DNA of 25,524 bases. Source: a virus. A program made the position numbers and the translations under genes. The stretch is from the IMG/VR virus record IMGVR_UViG_3300032047_000115, positions 1 to 25,524 of that record, one strand, 5' to 3'. Under the pieces are notes generated by a model. It ran no database searches. It was given only the letters and a program-made list of their open reading frames with translations, and was not told the DNA's origin. Shown here piece by piece: positions 3,001-22,584 of the stretch (position 1 is the first letter of the stretch; every line of letters starts with the position of its first letter).

Positions 3001-5280
3001 CCATCCTTGTACAGGAGGTAAACCATAGGTAGAATCGGGGTCTACGTTAGTTCTTTGCTCATTTCTATTAGCTTCAGGTACATATCCTGTAGCATCACCT
3101 CTTGCACTAGCTGTAGAACCACCTGAAGTAGTCCAACCACCAGCTTTCATACCAGAGAATGCAAATCCCCAAATATAAGTACCACTGTTCATTTCAAACA
3201 TGGTGTTATATTCAGAAGTACCAGCTACAACTGCATTTGAAGCGTTGAAATCTCTACTTGTATCGTATCTTTGGGTATTACTTGGGTGTATAAAGCAACT
3301 ACGCATTGTAGTACCAACAATAGAAACGTTATCAGCCTCTACACGTAAAGGTAAAACCTCTTGATAAGTACCAGCAGCTACAGAAATCATCCAACCTTGA
3401 CCTACACGGCCTGCTTGGTTAGTAACTGTACCACCACTTACATATGTATGAGCTAAATTAGTATCAACTGTTGTCTCTAATTGGCATTCAAATGATGTAT
3501 TACTTGTGATATTTGAGACAAAACGTAATGGATCATCTGCTTCAGGGAAGGTATGGTTGTTGGTACCACCTCCATAGTTACAACTCCAAACTAATCCAGC
3601 CATAGTAACCTTCATACCAACCCTTAAATTATGATTAGCATCAGTTGTTACTTCTAATAAACCAGTTTGATGGTTGTATGTAGCAGCTGTTACGTTAGTT
3701 GTAGTAGTTGAAGTTATATTTTCGTTTACATCAAGTAAAGCACCTCTAATAGTCTTCTTAGCTTTAATAATTCTATGACCATCGTTAAGATCATTACCAT
3801 TAACAGAGTCTACATATACTACTTTAGGTTGTGAAGTGAATGTACCACCTGAAGTGATAGCTCTCCAAACACCAGTATTAGCACCAGTTTTATCCCATAT
3901 AGATAATGTTTGATCGTTTAAGTGATCATACCATAATTTACCTTCAGTAAAATTAGTTTCTGTAGGAGCAGTACCTTTATTAGTAGTGTGGCTATAATAT
4001 ATAGCATCAAAACGTTTTGCTAAAGCTTTACCTGTAGCAATACTGTCATCACTATCCCAGTCAGGAGTAGGATAATTAGAAGTAGTAGTAGAAGCATCTA
4101 ATTCTGATGAAGTGATTACATCATCATTCCTTATTTTAGCTAACTCTACAGTATTATCATTTATAGCTAGTGAAACTTCTCCGTCAGCTGTATATGTTGT
4201 TGTAATAGGTACACTAGATTGTACTCTAACAGTACCTTGTTGAGAAGCTGTAGAGCGATCTACACCAATAGTTACATCACCAACAGTACCACCAACAGCA
4301 TGAGTTACATTTATAGCATCTCCACTAACTTGGTTTACCTTAATAACACCTTGGGTAGTAGGAGTACTACGCTCAGTTGAAATAATAGCACTTCCACTAT
4401 AATTGGAATCAGTCTCATTTGAAGCACCGACTTTAATACCGTGCCCTGATTCGACAATAATAATACCTCTATTATTTTTAGTACTAAGTTCTCCAGATAT
4501 GACAGCATCACCATTGGTGTAGTTAACATCAATACCGTCACCTTCATTTATCTTAACAATACCTTTATTGGTTTTAGAACTATCTTCACCTGATATTGTT
4601 GTCTGACCGTTAGAGTTTGTACCACCTGTAGCATCAGTTAAGTTAATACCTTCGCCTTCTATGAGGTCATCGAAGATAACTTTTCTTAATTGCTCACGGT
4701 TTACAGCATCATCATCTGAATCAGCACCAGCTACATGTTCAATTTTTCTATCAATACCTGATACTGGATGTGCTACATCAACAGCGTTAGCACTAAACTT
4801 AGATTCTTTAATAGAAAGTTTAGCTTCATTAACACCTTCTTCAGCAATATGCTGGATTCTTCTTAGTTCTGAGTTTAATTCACTAGCACGAATAGTACCT
4901 TGAGAACTAAAATCACTTTGAACTTCAGATGTAATACGCTCTAAAGTAATAATAGCATTAGCTGTTGGCTTTGCTACACCATTATCTGTATTTAAAGTGA
5001 TCTGGGTATTTCCAGAATTAAACTGATAGTTATTTACTGGAGTGGTAGCTGCAATACTACCAGCGTTAGAACCGCTAGTATTAGATGCATCATATTGTGA
5101 GTGGCTTGTGCCAGCTGTACCAGCATTAGTAGCTTCTGCTTGTAGTACGGCTGTATTGGAATCACGGCTAGGTTCAAAAATATAAACCTTTAAGTCTGAT
5201 CTATTTATTAGATCTATTGTTCCGAGGCTGAAGGTTACTGTATTACCATCCCCCGTATATTCGAGTCGTGTTGTTGCCAT
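1..5280 (-). CDS. Tail fibre protein, T7 gp17-like N-terminus, very long; 3' end outside window
   Basis: The frame from ATG at 5280 has no stop to the left edge: 1760 codons, against 553 residues for T7 gp17. Residues about 1-205 match the T7 tail-fibre anchor: 'MATTRLEYTGDGNTVTF', then 'RITSEV..SDFSSQGTIRASELN', 'IQHIAEEG' and 'DDDAVNREQLRKV'. Residues about 215-360 are four degenerate repeats of roughly 35-40 aa, each with a '(S)GxxxS..xxGxVxV' theme. Around residue 485, 'VYVDSVNGNDLNDGH' is the usual opening of a single-stranded right-handed beta-helix. The later part holds three copies of an 'xIxPxGSGxVxL' motif, plus 'WHDGSYYGYI' and 'TDGSGNLSW' motifs typical of marine phage fibres. The N-terminus should dock on the gp11/gp12 tail and the rest should bind the host surface. 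The gene begins 24 nt after the gp16 stop with no clear Shine-Dalgarno. The fibre assignment is firm; the receptor is unknown. Confidence 0.93.
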   Translation of the reverse strand, partial: MATTRLEYTGDGNTVTFSLGTIDLINRSDLKVYIFEPSRDSNTAVLQAEATNAGTAGTSHSQYDASNTSGSNAGSIAATTPVNNYQFNSGNTQITLNTDNGVAKPTANAIITLERITSEVQSDFSSQGTIRASELNSELRRIQHIAEEGVNEAKLSIKESKFSANAVDVAHPVSGIDRKIEHVAGADSDDDAVNREQLRKVIFDDLIEGEGINLTDATGGTNSNGQTTISGEDSSKTNKGIVKINEGDGIDVNYTNGDAVISGELSTKNNRGIIIVESGHGIKVGASNETDSNYSGSAIISTERSTPTTQGVIKVNQVSGDAINVTHAVGGTVGDVTIGVDRSTASQQGTVRVQSSVPITTTYTADGEVSLAINDNTVELAKIRNDDVITSSELDASTTTSNYPTPDWDSDDSIATGKALAKRFDAIYYSHTTNKGTAPTETNFTEGKLWYDHLNDQTLSIWDKTGANTGVWRAITSGGTFTSQPKVVYVDSVNGNDLNDGHRIIKAKKTIRGALLDVNENITSTTTTNVTAATYNHQTGLLEVTTDANHNLRVGMKVTMAGLVWSCNYGGGTNNHTFPEADDPLRFVSNITSNTSFECQLETTVDTNLAHTYVSGGTVTNQAGRVGQGWMISVAAGTYQEVLPLRVEADNVSIVGTTMRSCFIHPSNTQRYDTSRDFNASNAVVAGTSEYNTMFEMNSGTYIWGFAFSGMKAGGWTTSGGSTASARGDATGYVPEANRNEQRTNVDPDSTYGLPPVQGWIAAFRPNCSLKKSPYIQNCTSISDTDINNAAYDPVTQTGGLGGDKDSGMTAGGILVDGSVPSATSPLRSFVVDAFTQINMDGPGILCTNNGYAQLVSFFGTFCHYHAKSLNGGMLNLANCTTDYGRYGLIADGKSATTTFTSTVDGAKAAGQTSFNIDATTITSGYFGTGFNNSTANLRPGDNYLVSIGSDTYEIVSATPVGGSWTATNGWTITIMKTNSTNPAINDGLTNAITDGATVNFYQRSYISTGGHTFEYTGAGTDYRAAPENGGVPIEANEVVNRNMGKVWQSSTNHVGKFKVGDTFVIDQRSGKVESKGITLTGPVTSNNNDNITIDPAGSGVVTIGSAFNASTGSTIGNLTLANGSITDSSGAISFGDENLSTTGWIIALGQIDGGSLKADTTTINAATITDSTGAIGFGDENLTTTGTLSAGNTTVGTLGAGNTTVGTLGASGNVTFNTGNITTTSNADITLDPNGSGLVKLGSNLDVNGNSIVSASNGNIPIAPNGSGKVVLDGLSWPTADGTAGYVLKTDGSGNLSWTQVLPANNPTVSGSIVITDNLQLTDDDDSHSISLTAPATVPSNVVLTLPAAAPSANQYLKAGASTPTTLEWENALAITTVQTANSQSAQLALTTQEGDVVIRTDESKTYIRNSGTSNSMSDFTHLQSPTGGVTSFNSNTGAITADQALAAVNASSGTVATARLGSGATGSKFLRGDNTWQTVTGTTINNNAANRLITGSGTANELNALTSITASGAQLDFADNGKARFGNSQDLSIWHDGSYYGYIQNDSDALWIRSDMTYLTDANGSHTYLRGTAGTDVKIYYDNNLKFQTKSTGVEITGTCEATTFSGSGASLSSLNASNLSSGTLPASRINGLAFDGSNITNLPASGGSITATASGSLTNAKGVIINSNGTVSHPTASPATWGNSAQMSTYYQNECSCVYVGSDTFVYGFYNPGTGYRSLCAVKVNANGTITAGTPVNAITSGVQGPGNIAWDSDNNV
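1651..1722 (-). repeat. 30-bp tandem repeat inside the tail-fibre gene
   Basis: Positions 1651-1680 and 1681-1710 are near-identical 30-base units, and a degenerate third copy starts at 1711. They encode consecutive ten-residue units with the core 'GAGNTTVGTL'. The period is a multiple of three, so copy-number changes would keep the reading frame. Confidence 0.85.
1729..1909 (-). repeat. Two diverged copies of a 43-residue fibre module
   Basis: The stretches starting at 1741 and 1870 share the core 'atctccaaaac.aat.gctc' and are offset by 129 bp (43 codons). They encode 'DSTGAIGFGDENLTTTG' and 'DSSGAISFGDENLSTTG'. This looks like an internal duplication in the distal fibre shaft. Confidence 0.75.
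4215..4625 (-). repeat. Four degenerate protein repeats in the proximal tail-fibre shaft
   Basis: On the minus strand the translation shows successive units with the cores 'TNKGIVKINEGDGIDV', 'NNRGIIIVESGHGIKV', 'TTQGVIKVNQVSGDAINV' and 'SQQGTVRV'. Each is followed by a short strand and a '(S)GE/V-D/L-(R)ST' turn. The similarity is at the protein level. A repeating beta-structured shaft just after the virion anchor is the simplest reading. Confidence 0.75.
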
Positions 5281-19180: not shown

Positions 19181-20284
19181 TTAGAATGCGGTAGGTGCAG
19201 TGTTGGTTGTATGTAGCTCAACACAAGCAGCAGGGTTTAGATAATCTGCGCCCATAGCGAGTCTTCCGAGGATTACATCACCTTGGTAGATGACAGAAAC
19301 ATCGCCAGAAGTTACTTGAACCTGTGGTCCAATAGTTTCTACAACACCAGCAGCTTCTTTCTGGAATATAAGTCCACAAGAAGTTGCGAATCCGTTAGCA
19401 GGGCCATAATCATTATTGATTCCTGTTACAGAAGGCTCACCATTCTCAACAGAAGCTCCAACAAATGAACCAGCATTATCAATAGTAGATGCAGTACCAT
19501 ACTTGCCTTGGAACGGAACGTTCATAGACTTGAAGATCTTGATACCAGCAATAGAGATAACACCACCACCTGTTTGAAGACCTGTACCTTGCTCGTCACG
19601 GTTGATCAAAGCATTTGAAGATACATTCTCTATTAGCGAATAGTATTGGCGTGGAGAGAGAACCGCACATCTGCCGTCAGTACTCAATCCTTTCTCGTCT
19701 AAAATAGCAGCAGCTTCAAAGAAAGCAGATACAATCTTAGCAGAATCAAGTGCGTCAGCAGCAGCACCAGTACCAGTACCAACCTGAAGGGTTGTTCCAC
19801 CTGGTTCTAGCTTACCTGTAGCAGAGATTGGGTGGGCTGCACGAGCACCACGGGTGATCGCACGGAAGATTAAACGGTCATACTTTTCAGCAAGAGCATA
19901 GCCGATCTTCTTAGAGATTTCTCCTCTCAATTCGTAGTGAGCAAGGGTCTCGTCCAGATCATACACGAAAGCAGAACTGATCAATAGGTCATCAACGACT
20001 ATTGTTTTTTCTGCTACTGGGGGATCGCCTGAACCCAAGATAGGGGTTCCTGGAGTGTGGAAAGCCGCACCCATGCGTCCTGTGTAGATGAACTGTAAAC
20101 TCTTACCGTTCTTAAGTGTACGTCTCGTAACCATGTCACGAGCGATTGTGTTGTGCTGGAATCCTTTAAATAGTTCTCCAGAAAACAACTGTAAATAGGT
20201 GGCGTACTTATCTGTAGCACCACCGTAACCTGTACCTGTAGATAGATTTATCCTACCTAAGGCGGTTTGGGTAGCATTAGCCAT
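19181..20284 (-). CDS. Major capsid protein (gp10-like)
   Basis: A 367-aa protein in the T7 gene 10 position (gp10A is 345 aa). Family-like blocks are 'LFSGELFKGFQHNTIARDMV' near residue 34, 'SLQFIYTGRMGAAFHTPGT', a central 'KYDRLIFRAITRGAR', and 'CAVLSPRQYYSLIEN' near residue 207. This is the HK97-fold shell protein. The gene has its own 170-nt leader with a palindrome and direct repeats, and is followed by a strong terminator, as expected for the most abundant virion protein. I see no slippery site or extended second frame like the T7 10A/10B frameshift. It appears richer in G+C than genes 12 and 15-17. Confidence 0.95.
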   Translation of the reverse strand: MANATQTALGRINLSTGTGYGGATDKYATYLQLFSGELFKGFQHNTIARDMVTRRTLKNGKSLQFIYTGRMGAAFHTPGTPILGSGDPPVAEKTIVVDDLLISSAFVYDLDETLAHYELRGEISKKIGYALAEKYDRLIFRAITRGARAAHPISATGKLEPGGTTLQVGTGTGAAADALDSAKIVSAFFEAAAILDEKGLSTDGRCAVLSPRQYYSLIENVSSNALINRDEQGTGLQTGGGVISIAGIKIFKSMNVPFQGKYGTASTIDNAGSFVGASVENGEPSVTGINNDYGPANGFATSCGLIFQKEAAGVVETIGPQVQVTSGDVSVIYQGDVILGRLAMGADYLNPAACVELHTTNTAPTAF

Positions 20285-20454: not shown

Positions 20455-20607
20455 TTACAAGGTAGTCAAAGCTTCTTCAATCCCAATATCTTCTTCAAGA
20501 TCATTGAGTTCTTTAGTTGCTTCTTTAACTTGCTCTACCTGTTTAGCTTTAACAGCTTCAGGCTTAGGGTTGTTAGTTATAAAACTGGTGGGTATAGCGT
20601 TATCCAT
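20455..20607 (-). CDS. Small acidic protein of unknown function (50 aa)
   Basis: The ATG at 20607 overlaps the stop of the upstream beta-barrel gene (TAATG), which argues for coupled translation and a real gene. The product is 'MDNAIPTSFITNNPKPEAVK...' with a Lys/Glu-rich, probably helical middle (residues 18-40) and an acidic C-terminal part. I do not recognise it. It lies just before the capsid gene and could be a minor assembly or accessory protein; this is only positional inference. Confidence 0.65.
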   Translation of the reverse strand: MDNAIPTSFITNNPKPEAVKAKQVEQVKEATKELNDLEEDIGIEEALTTL

Positions 20608-20969
20608 TAGAAACTATACTTAGCTCCAGCTTTAACATTGTAAACATTATCGAAGTCGCCAGCAGAAATACCAGAGAACTCACCATAGAATGCTAACTTA
20701 TCTGTAGCATTAAGGTTAGCTCCGATCTTTCCAGAGAGTTCAGTCTCAGTACCGTCAACACCATTAGCTGCTAGTACTGTTGGACCACCTTGTACATAGT
20801 AGGCAACTTTATCTGTGCCTCCTTCGTAACCAACGTGGATGTCTATAGCTCTAGCTACATATTCAGAACCAACATGACCTTGGTTCAATTCTGTGTTAAC
20901 GTATACGCCAGCGGTTGCAGGTGCAGACGCTAGAGTAGTTGCTGCGAGAGCAAGTGCAATTGTTTTCAT
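20607..20969 (-). CDS. Secreted porin-like / outer-membrane beta-barrel-like protein (120 aa)
   Basis: The first 20 residues are a textbook signal peptide: 'MK', a hydrophobic Ala/Leu stretch, then 'APATA' with an A-x-A cleavage site before Gly21. The mature ~100 aa alternates polar and apolar residues in strand-like blocks ('VYVNTELN', 'AIDIHVGYEG', 'VAYYVQGGP', 'LAFYGEFSG', 'YNVKAGAKYSF'). It ends in Tyr-Ser-Phe, the C-terminal aromatic signal of outer-membrane beta-barrel proteins. It likely folds in the host outer membrane as a small barrel. It has no T7 counterpart. Its ATG is 4 nt after the stop of the 18-aa leader-peptide gene and has no Shine-Dalgarno of its own. Possible roles are envelope modification, superinfection exclusion or solute permeability; none can be chosen from sequence. 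Confidence 0.8.
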   Translation of the reverse strand: MKTIALALAATTLASAPATAGVYVNTELNQGHVGSEYVARAIDIHVGYEGGTDKVAYYVQGGPTVLAANGVDGTETELSGKIGANLNATDKLAFYGEFSGISAGDFDNVYNVKAGAKYSF

Positions 20970-20973
20970 TTAA

Positions 20974-21030
20974 TTAAGATTTGATTGTTTTTGTGTATGT
21001 AACACCACGATACTTTAGTTTTACAGTCAT
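20974..21030 (-). CDS. 18-aa peptide with DUF4278-like start, downstream of riboswitch
   Basis: ATG 21030 is preceded by a good Shine-Dalgarno AAGGA (21037-21041) at 6-nt spacing. The product is 'MTVKLKYRGVTYTKTIKS', whose 'LKYRGVTY' core resembles the opening strand of cyanobacterial DUF4278 proteins. Very short peptides of this kind are known downstream of the 'Downstream-peptide' (glutamine-II) riboswitch of marine cyanobacteria and cyanophages. The gene lies directly after such a candidate and ends 4 nt before the next ATG. It may act as a peptide or mainly as a translated leader. Confidence 0.8.
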   Translation of the reverse strand: MTVKLKYRGVTYTKTIKS

Positions 21031-21036
21031 TGTAAT

Positions 21037-21100
21037 TCCTTAGTACCTAAGCCCCGTTCCATGCTTAGGTTTCATGCGTCCATGAAAAATGGATGAACGG
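21037..21100 (-). ncRNA. Candidate glutamine-II riboswitch (Downstream-peptide RNA motif)
   Basis: On the minus-strand RNA, CCGUUC (21100-21095) pairs with GAACGG (21059-21054) as the outer stem. Inside it, UCCAU/AUGGA (21093-21089 with 21083-21079) closes a 5-nt loop. ACCUAAGC (21070-21063), between the inner hairpin and the 3' strand of the outer stem, is perfectly complementary over 8 bp to GCUUAGGU (21052-21045), giving a pseudoknot. The 'CGUUCAUCC...GGACG...GGAACGG' pattern and the pseudoknot match what I remember of the Downstream-peptide motif, later shown to bind L-glutamine. The pseudoknot ends 3 nt before AAGGA, so ligand-stabilised folding could block translation of the 18-aa peptide. 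Covariance-model confirmation was not possible here. Confidence 0.82.
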
Positions 21101-21109
21101 ACGTGATGT

Positions 21110-21226
21110 TTAAAGTTTTTTGTAAATGTCGTTAGCTGATAATAAAATTTTAATTTTAGTAGAGGGACTACTAGCCTTACTAGCAGCATTAACTCTTCTA
21201 TCAAACTTATCGTATTTATTAGGCAT
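21110..21226 (-). CDS. Small basic protein of unknown function (38 aa)
   Basis: The ATG at 21226 lies inside the last codons of psbA (8-nt overlap), and the frame stops at 21110, just before the riboswitch. The product '[20 protein letters not shown]...' is basic and Lys/Ser-rich, ending in 'SANDIYKKL'. I do not recognise it. The start/stop overlap with psbA supports translation, but the gene is short and could be a chance ORF in the psbA tail region. Confidence 0.5.
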
Positions 21227-22271
21227 TTAATGTTACCTCAGTAGCCGCTAAATCTAGCGGGAAATTGTGTGCATTTCTTTCATGCATTACTTCCATACCT
21301 AAGTCGGCACGGTTAAGTACGTCAGCCCATGTAGGGATGGTTCTTCCATTTGTGTCAACAACGGACTGGTTAAAGTTAAAACCGTTGAGATTAAAAGCCA
21401 TAGTGGAGACTCCCATAGCGGTAATCCATATGCAAAGGACGGGCCAAGTAGCCAAGAAGAAATGTAAACTACGGCTATTATTAAAGCTAGCATACTGGAA
21501 TATGAGTCTCCCAAAGTAGCCATGAGCCGCAACAATGTTATACGTTTCTTCCTCTTGACCGAATTTATATCCATAGTTCTGAGAATCTAATCCAGTTGTT
21601 TCACGGATTAATGATGATGTAACAAGACTTCCATGCATTGCAGCAAACAAGGCACCTCCAAACACACCTGCTACTCCGAGCATGTGGAAGGGATGCATTA
21701 ATATGTTGTGCTCTGCTTGGAAGACAAACATGAAATTAAACGTACCCGATATACCTAGAGGCATACCATCAGAGAATGAACCCTGACCGAATGGGTAGAC
21801 TAGAAATACAGCAAATGCCGCTGCAACTGGAGCCGAATATGCTACACATATCCAAGGTCTCATTCCTAATCTATAGCTAAGTTCCCATTGACGTCCCAAG
21901 TAAGATGAGATACCAATGAGGAAATGGAAGACGATGAGTTGGTACGGCCCTCCGTTGTAGAGCCATTCATCAAGGTTTGCAGCTTCCCATATTGGGTAAA
22001 AATGCAATCCGATTGCGTTGCTTGACGGGACAATCGCTCCCGATATGATGTTGTTTCCATAGAGTAAAGATCCAGCGACAGGCTCACGGATACCGTCGAT
22101 GTCAACTGGAGGGGCTGCGATAAACGCAATAATAAAACATGTAGTTGCGGCTAGTAAGCAAGGTATCATAAGCACACCGAACCACCCCACGTAGAGGCGG
22201 TTGTCTGTGCTTGTTACCCACTCACAAAACCTATCCCAATTAGAGGATTGATCAAGAGTAAGTGTTGACAT
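21219..22271 (-). CDS. psbA: Photosystem II D1 reaction-centre protein
   Basis: A 350-aa phage-borne D1. Numbering runs two behind the host standard. All key residues are present: Tyr159 (Yz, standard 161), Asp168 (170), Glu187 and His188 (189, 190), P680 ligand His196 (198), and the iron/quinone-site His213, Ser262 and His270 (215, 264, 272). The manganese ligands at the C-terminus, '[14 protein letters not shown]', are intact. The extension removed on maturation after 'DLA' is only eight residues ('ATEVTLNA'), about half the usual cyanobacterial length. Standard position 130 is Gln. There are five transmembrane helices and no intron or frameshift. It replaces fast-turning-over host D1 during infection to sustain photosynthesis and energy supply. 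It follows hli as TAATG, so the two are one translational unit. It appears richer in G+C than the flanking long virion genes. Confidence 0.99.
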
Positions 22272-22456
22272 TAAAATACACCAGGAATAATTTGGCCTGT
22301 GAATATGTAAGCACCTAGTAAAGCTGTGAATCCTATCATAGCTAATTGCCCGTTAGTGCGTTCAGCTGTTATAAAATAAGACTCTTCTTCAGGTGTTCTT
22401 GCTTTTGTTTCTTTAGCAAGAATGTTTTGCTTTCCGTATTCTGTAGTAACAGTCAT
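22271..22456 (-). CDS. hli: High-light-inducible (HLI/HLIP) protein
   Basis: I use ATG 22456 (61 aa); the longer frame to 22510 would need a TTG and would run through a hairpin. A hydrophilic N-terminus leads into one transmembrane helix with the chlorophyll-binding signature '[18 protein letters not shown]' (Glu32, Asn35). It is a single-helix member of the LHC/ELIP family, inserted in the thylakoid near photosystem II, where it binds pigment and quenches excess energy. It is co-translated with psbA (TAATG), so both products would protect or supply photosystem II in the infected cell. The 128-nt upstream region holds a hairpin but no clear Shine-Dalgarno. Confidence 0.97.
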
Positions 22457-22478
22457 TAGAATAAAATAAAAGTTCGAG

Positions 22479-22509
22479 TGTGGCGAGGATGATCGGTCAG
22501 GTCGCCACA
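22479..22509 (-). promoter_or_regulatory. Structured leader hairpin upstream of hli-psbA
   Basis: UGUGGCGA and UCGCCACA form a perfect 8-bp stem around a 15-nt loop. It ends 22 nt before the hli ATG and is followed by a U-rich stretch. It could be a terminator for the scaffold transcript or a conserved 5'-UTR element. PhotoRC-II (cyanophage psbA leaders) and wcaG (exopolysaccharide and HLI gene leaders) are the known RNA families to test. Confidence 0.6.
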
Positions 22510-22584
22510 AAAATTAAATAAATATATAAAGAAATATCTATGACCATACACACTCTACCTAAATATATTTCTAATGCATATAAC
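22510..22584 (-). other. AT-rich spacer between scaffold gene and hli leader
   Basis: The spacer is very A+T rich, with TATATATT-like tracts around 22521-22535 that could serve as a -10 region. No matching -35 box was convincing. No gene is supported here. Confidence 0.4.

Follow-up and report, generated by a model that had tools for sequence, protein, structure and literature searches.

Introduction

The glutamine-II riboswitch, or Downstream-peptide motif (RF01704), is reportedly the subject of studies by Weinberg (2010), Ames and Breaker (2011), Klahn (2018) and Huang (2019). When fused to GFP the motif behaved as an ON switch, which is also what the structural paper calls it; in a Prochlorococcus strain glutamine binding activates expression, and it is proposed that the pseudoknot, once stabilised by ligand, releases the ribosome binding site (PMC6698751; PMC6316151). 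In the crystal structure of the family the pseudoknot consists of five base pairs and a long-range C19:G41 pair (PMC6698751). Host DUF4278 proteins are similar to the N-terminal region of IF17, the inactivating factor of glutamine synthetase, and according to a review that draws upon Klahn 2018 glutamine riboswitches are confined to cyanobacteria (PMC6316151). The glutamine-I riboswitch (glnA motif, RF01739) has been described from a T4-like cyanophage as well as from a marine methylophage (PMC9964418, PMC9004378). In the literature that we found, mentions of phage copies are either brief asides or concern other genes, and a limited search returned no paper describing the phage locus presented here, which does not establish its absence from the literature. 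All of the results below are computational.

Gene Context of the Locus

The DNA under study, referred to here as the window, comprises 25,524 bases (virus record IMGVR_UViG_3300032047_000115), and its sequence identifies it as part of a T7-like cyanophage, a fragment of 25.5 kb. PHROG matches give the gene order on the minus strand as portal, scaffold, hli, psbA, a 38-aa ORF, the riboswitch, its peptide, phrog_417, the major capsid protein, and tail and internal virion proteins, placing the element among head genes, in agreement with its initial annotation as part of a phage structural cluster. The predicted glutamine switch of the window is a borrowed element in a virus of ocean cyanobacteria. 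The features of the locus, all on the minus strand, are as follows.

22271..22510 (-): high-light-inducible protein gene hli (phrog_178, E 2e-20), upstream context
21219..22271 (-): psbA, photosystem II D1 (phrog_182, E 5e-190), directly upstream in the operon
21110..21226 (-): 38-aa ORF, from sequence, overlapping the psbA stop and ending ~10 nt 5' of the aptamer
21046..21102 (-): glutamine-II riboswitch aptamer, whole (RF01704, cmscan 54.7 bits, GA 33, E 6.9e-11)
21095..21099 (-): 5' strand of the pseudoknot, CGUUC, equivalent to C1-C5 of the crystal structure (numbering of PMC6698751)
21079..21093 (-): P1 hairpin, UCCAU/AUGGA
21075..21078 (-): linking strand, CGCA (C17, G18, C19), with the ligand-stacking and base-triple nucleotides, matching the positions of the crystallised aptamer
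21055..21059 (-): 3' strand of the pseudoknot, GAACG, equivalent to G36-G40 and including C39 and G40, which contact the ligand in the crystal
21045..21070 (-): P2 helix, ACCUAAGC/GCUUAGGU around the pseudoknot loop AUGGAACGGG
21037..21042 (-): Shine-Dalgarno UAAGGA, from sequence, 2-3 nt past the end of the 8-bp helix
20974..21030 (-): 18-aa peptide MTVKLKYRGVTYTKTIKS, with a single YRG unit
20607..20969 (-): cyanophage outer-membrane-like beta-barrel protein "gp222", 120 aa (phrog_417; PF24653, Pfam 130.9 bits)
19181..20284 (-): major capsid protein gene (phrog_267, E 6e-82), downstream context

A PHROG search with the 38-aa ORF returned no match, and no family was found for it.

Identity and Architecture of the Aptamer

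The RF01704 match, whose score is well beyond chance, was the only Rfam match that cmscan returned over the whole window, and in a search of the genome collection the same aptamer was recovered with an E-value of 1.6e-14. The glutamine-II identity proposed in the initial annotation is thus borne out by one of the two Rfam models that it had named, whereas the other, RF01739 (glnA motif, glutamine-I), had no match at the gathering threshold in the window.

The structural elements that had been described for the locus are all present in the sequence: an outer stem of 6 bp (CCGTTC 21100-21095 with GAACGG 21059-21054), which contains the pseudoknot strands; an inner hairpin of 5 bp (TCCAT 21093-21089 with ATGGA 21083-21079); a perfect helix of 8 bp (ACCTAAGC 21070-21063 with GCTTAGGT 21052-21045) that ends 2-3 nt before the Shine-Dalgarno TAAGGA; and, following this, the ORF of 18 codons (21030-20974) in whose 5' leader the aptamer sits. 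The 8-bp helix had been designated the pseudoknot; in Rfam and the crystal structure it is P2, and the CGTTC/GAACG helix is the pseudoknot (PMC6698751), although either may be called the knot because the two helices interlock. Every position that contacts glutamine or builds its site in the crystal (C1, G2, G18, C19, A37, A38, C39, G40, and G41) is present in the window. On this sequence evidence the element is a phage-borne member of the glutamine-II riboswitch family, and it is predicted to bind the ligand.

Covariation of the Helices

P1, P2, and the pseudoknot all covary in phage relatives; covariation of both strands of its pseudoknot had been suggested as a check in the initial annotation. 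The helices were evaluated in 63 distinct viral sequences among the matches listed, joined at fixed anchors. In this set 96.8% of cells were paired, vs. 79.9% after shuffling and at most 56% after sliding; 155 cells with double changes were observed, vs. 38 expected by shuffling; and the covariation score was 0.467, vs. 0.139 for shuffled and at most 0.092 for slid alignments. For P1, 96.0% of cells were paired and each of the four pairs showed double changes, and for P2 the corresponding value was 95.2%, with double changes at seven of the eight pairs and up to six pair types per pair.

The pseudoknot was examined apart from this alignment, by single- and double-mutant pattern scans, because the search pattern had fixed the pseudoknot letters in the alignment; its covariation is informative at C5:G36 alone, the other four pairs being fixed by the search patterns. 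The double change to U5:A36 (CGTTT/GAAACG) was found in at least 23 viral contigs, each with a YRG peptide after it, and also occurs with a YRG peptide in the isolate SS120-1. Among the matches listed, the single-mutant scans gave one genuine case of a U-G wobble at this pair and no genuine mismatch; the sole match listed to CGTTC/GAAACG, a C-A mismatch, has no YRG peptide and looks like a chance sequence.

Distribution among Cyanophages

To estimate prevalence we used 40 contigs that had been picked by their capsid protein alone, ignoring the RNA. RF01704 scored above the gathering threshold (GA) in 35 of these, and the aptamer is kept in 38 when two loci with a nested gene (L312 and L313, see below) and one with a long P1 (L318) are included; the remaining two capsid-chosen contigs (L248 and L305) appear to be without it. 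Among isolates, for which counts cover the stretch around the capsid gene except where the whole record was searched, 12 of 23 scored above GA directly (e.g., P-SSP7, 48.1 bits, and NATL1A-7, 59.2 bits), P-SSP3 shows the same pattern and peptide, and the aptamer is present in at least 14 of 23 if the nested form of S-SBP1 is counted. The ordinary aptamer is absent from 10 of the 23 in the stretch examined, these including S-SBP1 (nested) and S-CBP3, which has a degenerate version and a YRG peptide. The RF01704 match in P-SSP7 falls where no feature is annotated.

Isolates without psbA at this place mostly have no aptamer (P60, Syn5, S-CBP2, and S-CBP42), although SS120-1 and S-TIP28 have one despite the absence of psbA there. 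At loci among the matches listed psbA lies upstream in 59 of 96, and downstream are the capsid gene in 60 of 92 and phrog_417 in 17 of 92. The element is near-core in psbA-bearing T7-like cyanophages, where its usual position is after psbA and before the capsid gene. In three T4-like cyanophages, P-RSM6 (L382), ACG-2014f (L383), and P-TIM68 (L384), we observed tandem degenerate glutamine-II-like aptamers before YRG peptides, scoring at or just below GA.

The YRG Peptide

A YRG..Y motif lies downstream of the aptamer at all 111 viral loci with enough sequence among the matches listed, vs. 0 of 111 on the antisense strand and 0 of 105 upstream of the aptamer. The tyrosine at +5 is invariant (73/73 peptides). 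Pairwise counts, which ignore phylogeny, gave a dN/dS of 0.27 on the nine-codon core of the peptide and of 0.31 on the flanking codons, with the YRG codons excluded. Among the matches listed, 112 of 113 viral peptides have one YRG unit vs. 2-4 units in all 39 closed cyanobacterial peptides, a host set limited to pattern-scan matches with a YRG peptide, many chance matches in unrelated bacteria having been dropped.

Phage peptides are mostly 13-21 aa in length (e.g., MKVTFVYRGVAYTRVIG in P-SSP7 and MTVKLKYRGVTYTKTI in NATL1A-7), and others of ~33-38 aa have a different N-terminal stretch and, again, a single unit. The earlier assignment of the peptide to the YRG/DUF4278 type agrees with the constancy of the motif, and the Pfam scores of phage forms fall below the cut-off: against PF14105 (DUF4278, cut-off 25.3) phage forms of 33-34 aa scored 20.2 and 15.1 vs. 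33.1 and 42.9 for host forms, the 18-aa peptide of the window being too short to be scored (20-residue limit). The idea that a tRNA follows the peptide in P-SSP7-like phages was rejected, as ARAGORN found none in the four loci searched (L122, L008, L066, and L101).

Genes Downstream of the Peptide

The barrel gene starts 4 nt past the stop of the 18-aa peptide in the window, and between -4 and +17 nt from the peptide stop in the barrel-following loci that were inspected; it is probably translationally coupled to the peptide. The missing Shine-Dalgarno before the barrel gene was considered as proof of coupling and dropped, since a clear one is generally wanting at the gene starts of the window and its absence thus proves nothing in this respect: by eye, a clear Shine-Dalgarno at the usual spacing was seen at none of 12 gene starts between 5305 and 25342 (-), in contrast to the UAAGGA of the riboswitch peptide. 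The barrel protein itself (PF24653, 20607-20969 (-)), which adjoins the riboswitch peptide in one clade, has a signal-peptide-like start and is possibly a surface-altering protein.

A second conserved structured RNA was observed in the leader of the capsid gene (window 20448-20350 (-)) and occupies the same place in most loci compared. It comprises a 5' hairpin in two interchangeable forms, followed by GGC..GCC..UACG..GAUACC..GCCGUCUAGACGGUGGGAUAGACCACA; of the five main stem pairs, four were intact in every sequence of one form (60/60), with up to five pair types. No Rfam family matched this RNA in the window or in the relatives scanned. In one relative (L258) the sequence 5' of the capsid gene at 3904 resembles, by eye, the final part of an endonuclease-type ORF (GLFEGEG...), and endonuclease PHROGs also occur among the genes downstream of aptamer loci.

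Genes Nested inside P1 of Relatives

The aptamer of the window has the plain form, without a nested gene. In S-SBP1 the aptamer scores below GA and the gene for hypothetical protein gp32 is located inside its P1 (L327:1962-2126). Searches with gp32 and a divergent homologue identified 85 distinct aptamers of this nested form in relatives, a count that, with nested-gene sequences being related, is not one of independent events. Loci with the nested gene are L327 (S-SBP1), L386-L465, L467-L503, L312, L313, L347, L353, and L354. The nested gene has 51-60 codons and is phrog_628-like. Its start lies in the P1 strand or immediately inside it, typically 3-6 nt past CGUUCA (11 nt in 3 of 85), and its stop codon typically falls in GACGCAUGA or GACGCAUAA, in the ligand-binding linking strand (GAC GCA TGA or TAA); exceptions among the 85 are four stops three bases later and two before CGCA. 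The nested protein is predicted to be a helical hairpin (pLDDT 85.5) and has weak free-standing relatives in T4-like cyanophages.

In a set of 54 nested ORFs dN/dS was 0.10, and synonymous divergence was 0.63 in the loop vs. 0.15 and 0.24 in the codons of the P1 strands. Only 7% of synonymous recodings, on average, reached the stability of the natural P1, the mean stability being -8.1 kcal/mol for natural sequences vs. -2.9 kcal/mol for recoded ones, and L397/L399 are exceptional among nested forms in having a weak P1. P1 of the nested form is more stable than protein coding requires. Because the gene starts in or at the P1 strand and normally stops in the linking strand, a translating ribosome and the folded aptamer would exclude each other. 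We rate at about even the chances that in these relatives, with a whole phage gene nested in the sensor, the two states are mutually exclusive and the switch either reads glutamine and nested-gene translation together or gives two opposite outputs.

Discussion

We consider it probable, with good confidence, that a glutamine-II riboswitch serves the psbA-to-capsid cluster of this T7-like cyanophage as an ON switch driving a host-mimicking YRG peptide, a reading that predicts binding of the ligand, an ON response, a barrel gene coupled to the peptide and possibly an action on nitrogen assimilation. Glutamine would stabilise the pseudoknot and leave the adjacent Shine-Dalgarno free, so that more of the 18-aa YRG peptide is made; in the clade of the window this increase would extend through coupling to the outer-membrane barrel gene. 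The peptide would represent a single-unit form of the small DUF4278-type proteins that hosts place under the same riboswitch. Its simplest role may be that of a host-mimicking regulator on the same partner, because these riboswitch-controlled host proteins are similar to the N-terminus of IF17, and it could imitate or antagonise the host DUF4278 proteins. The earlier proposal that the phage senses host nitrogen status would follow from the chemistry of the family.

The direction of the switch is where we depart from the initial annotation, which had glutamine lowering translation; that sign is probably wrong, because published work has glutamine-II switching translation on. An OFF switch would operate if the glutamine-stabilised stack of P2 and pseudoknot, 2-3 nt from the Shine-Dalgarno, blocked the ribosome and reduced synthesis of the peptide. 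The spacing from aptamer end to Shine-Dalgarno is indeed short and conserved, mostly 3-5 nt in phages and 7 nt in hosts, and folding of the viral leaders revealed neither a competing anti-Shine-Dalgarno structure nor any clear glutamine-free structure that hides the Shine-Dalgarno, the CUUAG/CUAAG hairpin of the window leader being not general and so rejected as a conserved alternative. In the same folded leaders the mean unpaired probability of the Shine-Dalgarno was 0.31 when free vs. 0.42 with the aptamer held, and host leaders had the opposite trend. Against this, the Prochlorococcus glutamine-II riboswitch activates with glutamine and the structural paper calls the class an ON switch (PMC6316151, PMC6698751), leading us to regard an OFF switch as unlikely.

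We are similarly doubtful that the peptide is a regulatory leader only, functionless in itself, whose translation couples to the downstream gene (barrel or capsid). Barrel starts at -4 to +17 nt from the peptide stop, in the inspected loci of the window's clade, would suit such coupling, but at most loci no gene lies that near, with the capsid gene starting ~150-350 nt further on, and the YRG..Y core is under protein-level selection across phages with quite different downstream genes. Also conceivable is that the fold was kept and re-used for something other than glutamine sensing, for instance to stabilise or process the mRNA between psbA and capsid, where it lies near another strongly conserved structured RNA; however, the ligand-binding nucleotides are conserved as well as the helices are and the peptide partner is constant, making this the least likely of the alternatives and, in our estimation, very improbable.

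A type-2 glutamine switch becomes a near-core part of psbA-bearing T7-like cyanophages, the model phage P-SSP7 included, which opens to direct testing the question of whether the nitrogen state of the host is read by a lytic phage. The gene-in-aptamer form offers a natural case of a single RNA under both protein and riboswitch selection.

Among known systems, the glutamine-I riboswitch (RF01739) shares the ligand and is also phage-borne, but is built on a three-way junction, unlike the pseudoknot of the window. The small DUF4278 proteins of hosts (e.g., PMM1846 of MED4, PMC6316151) have in common with the phage peptide the LxYRGxxY core and riboswitch control; they are 33-72 aa in length with repeated units, whereas phage peptides have a single unit and are mostly shorter, so that the host proteins gain a natural single-unit counterpart. 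The closest system is the glutamine-II motif itself, with which the window shares the aptamer score, ligand-site positions, P1-PK-P2 architecture, and a place before a very short ORF. The window copy differs from its RF01704 relatives in hosts in lying in a phage head-gene operon after psbA, in having one YRG unit in place of 2-4, and in its shorter spacing to the Shine-Dalgarno.
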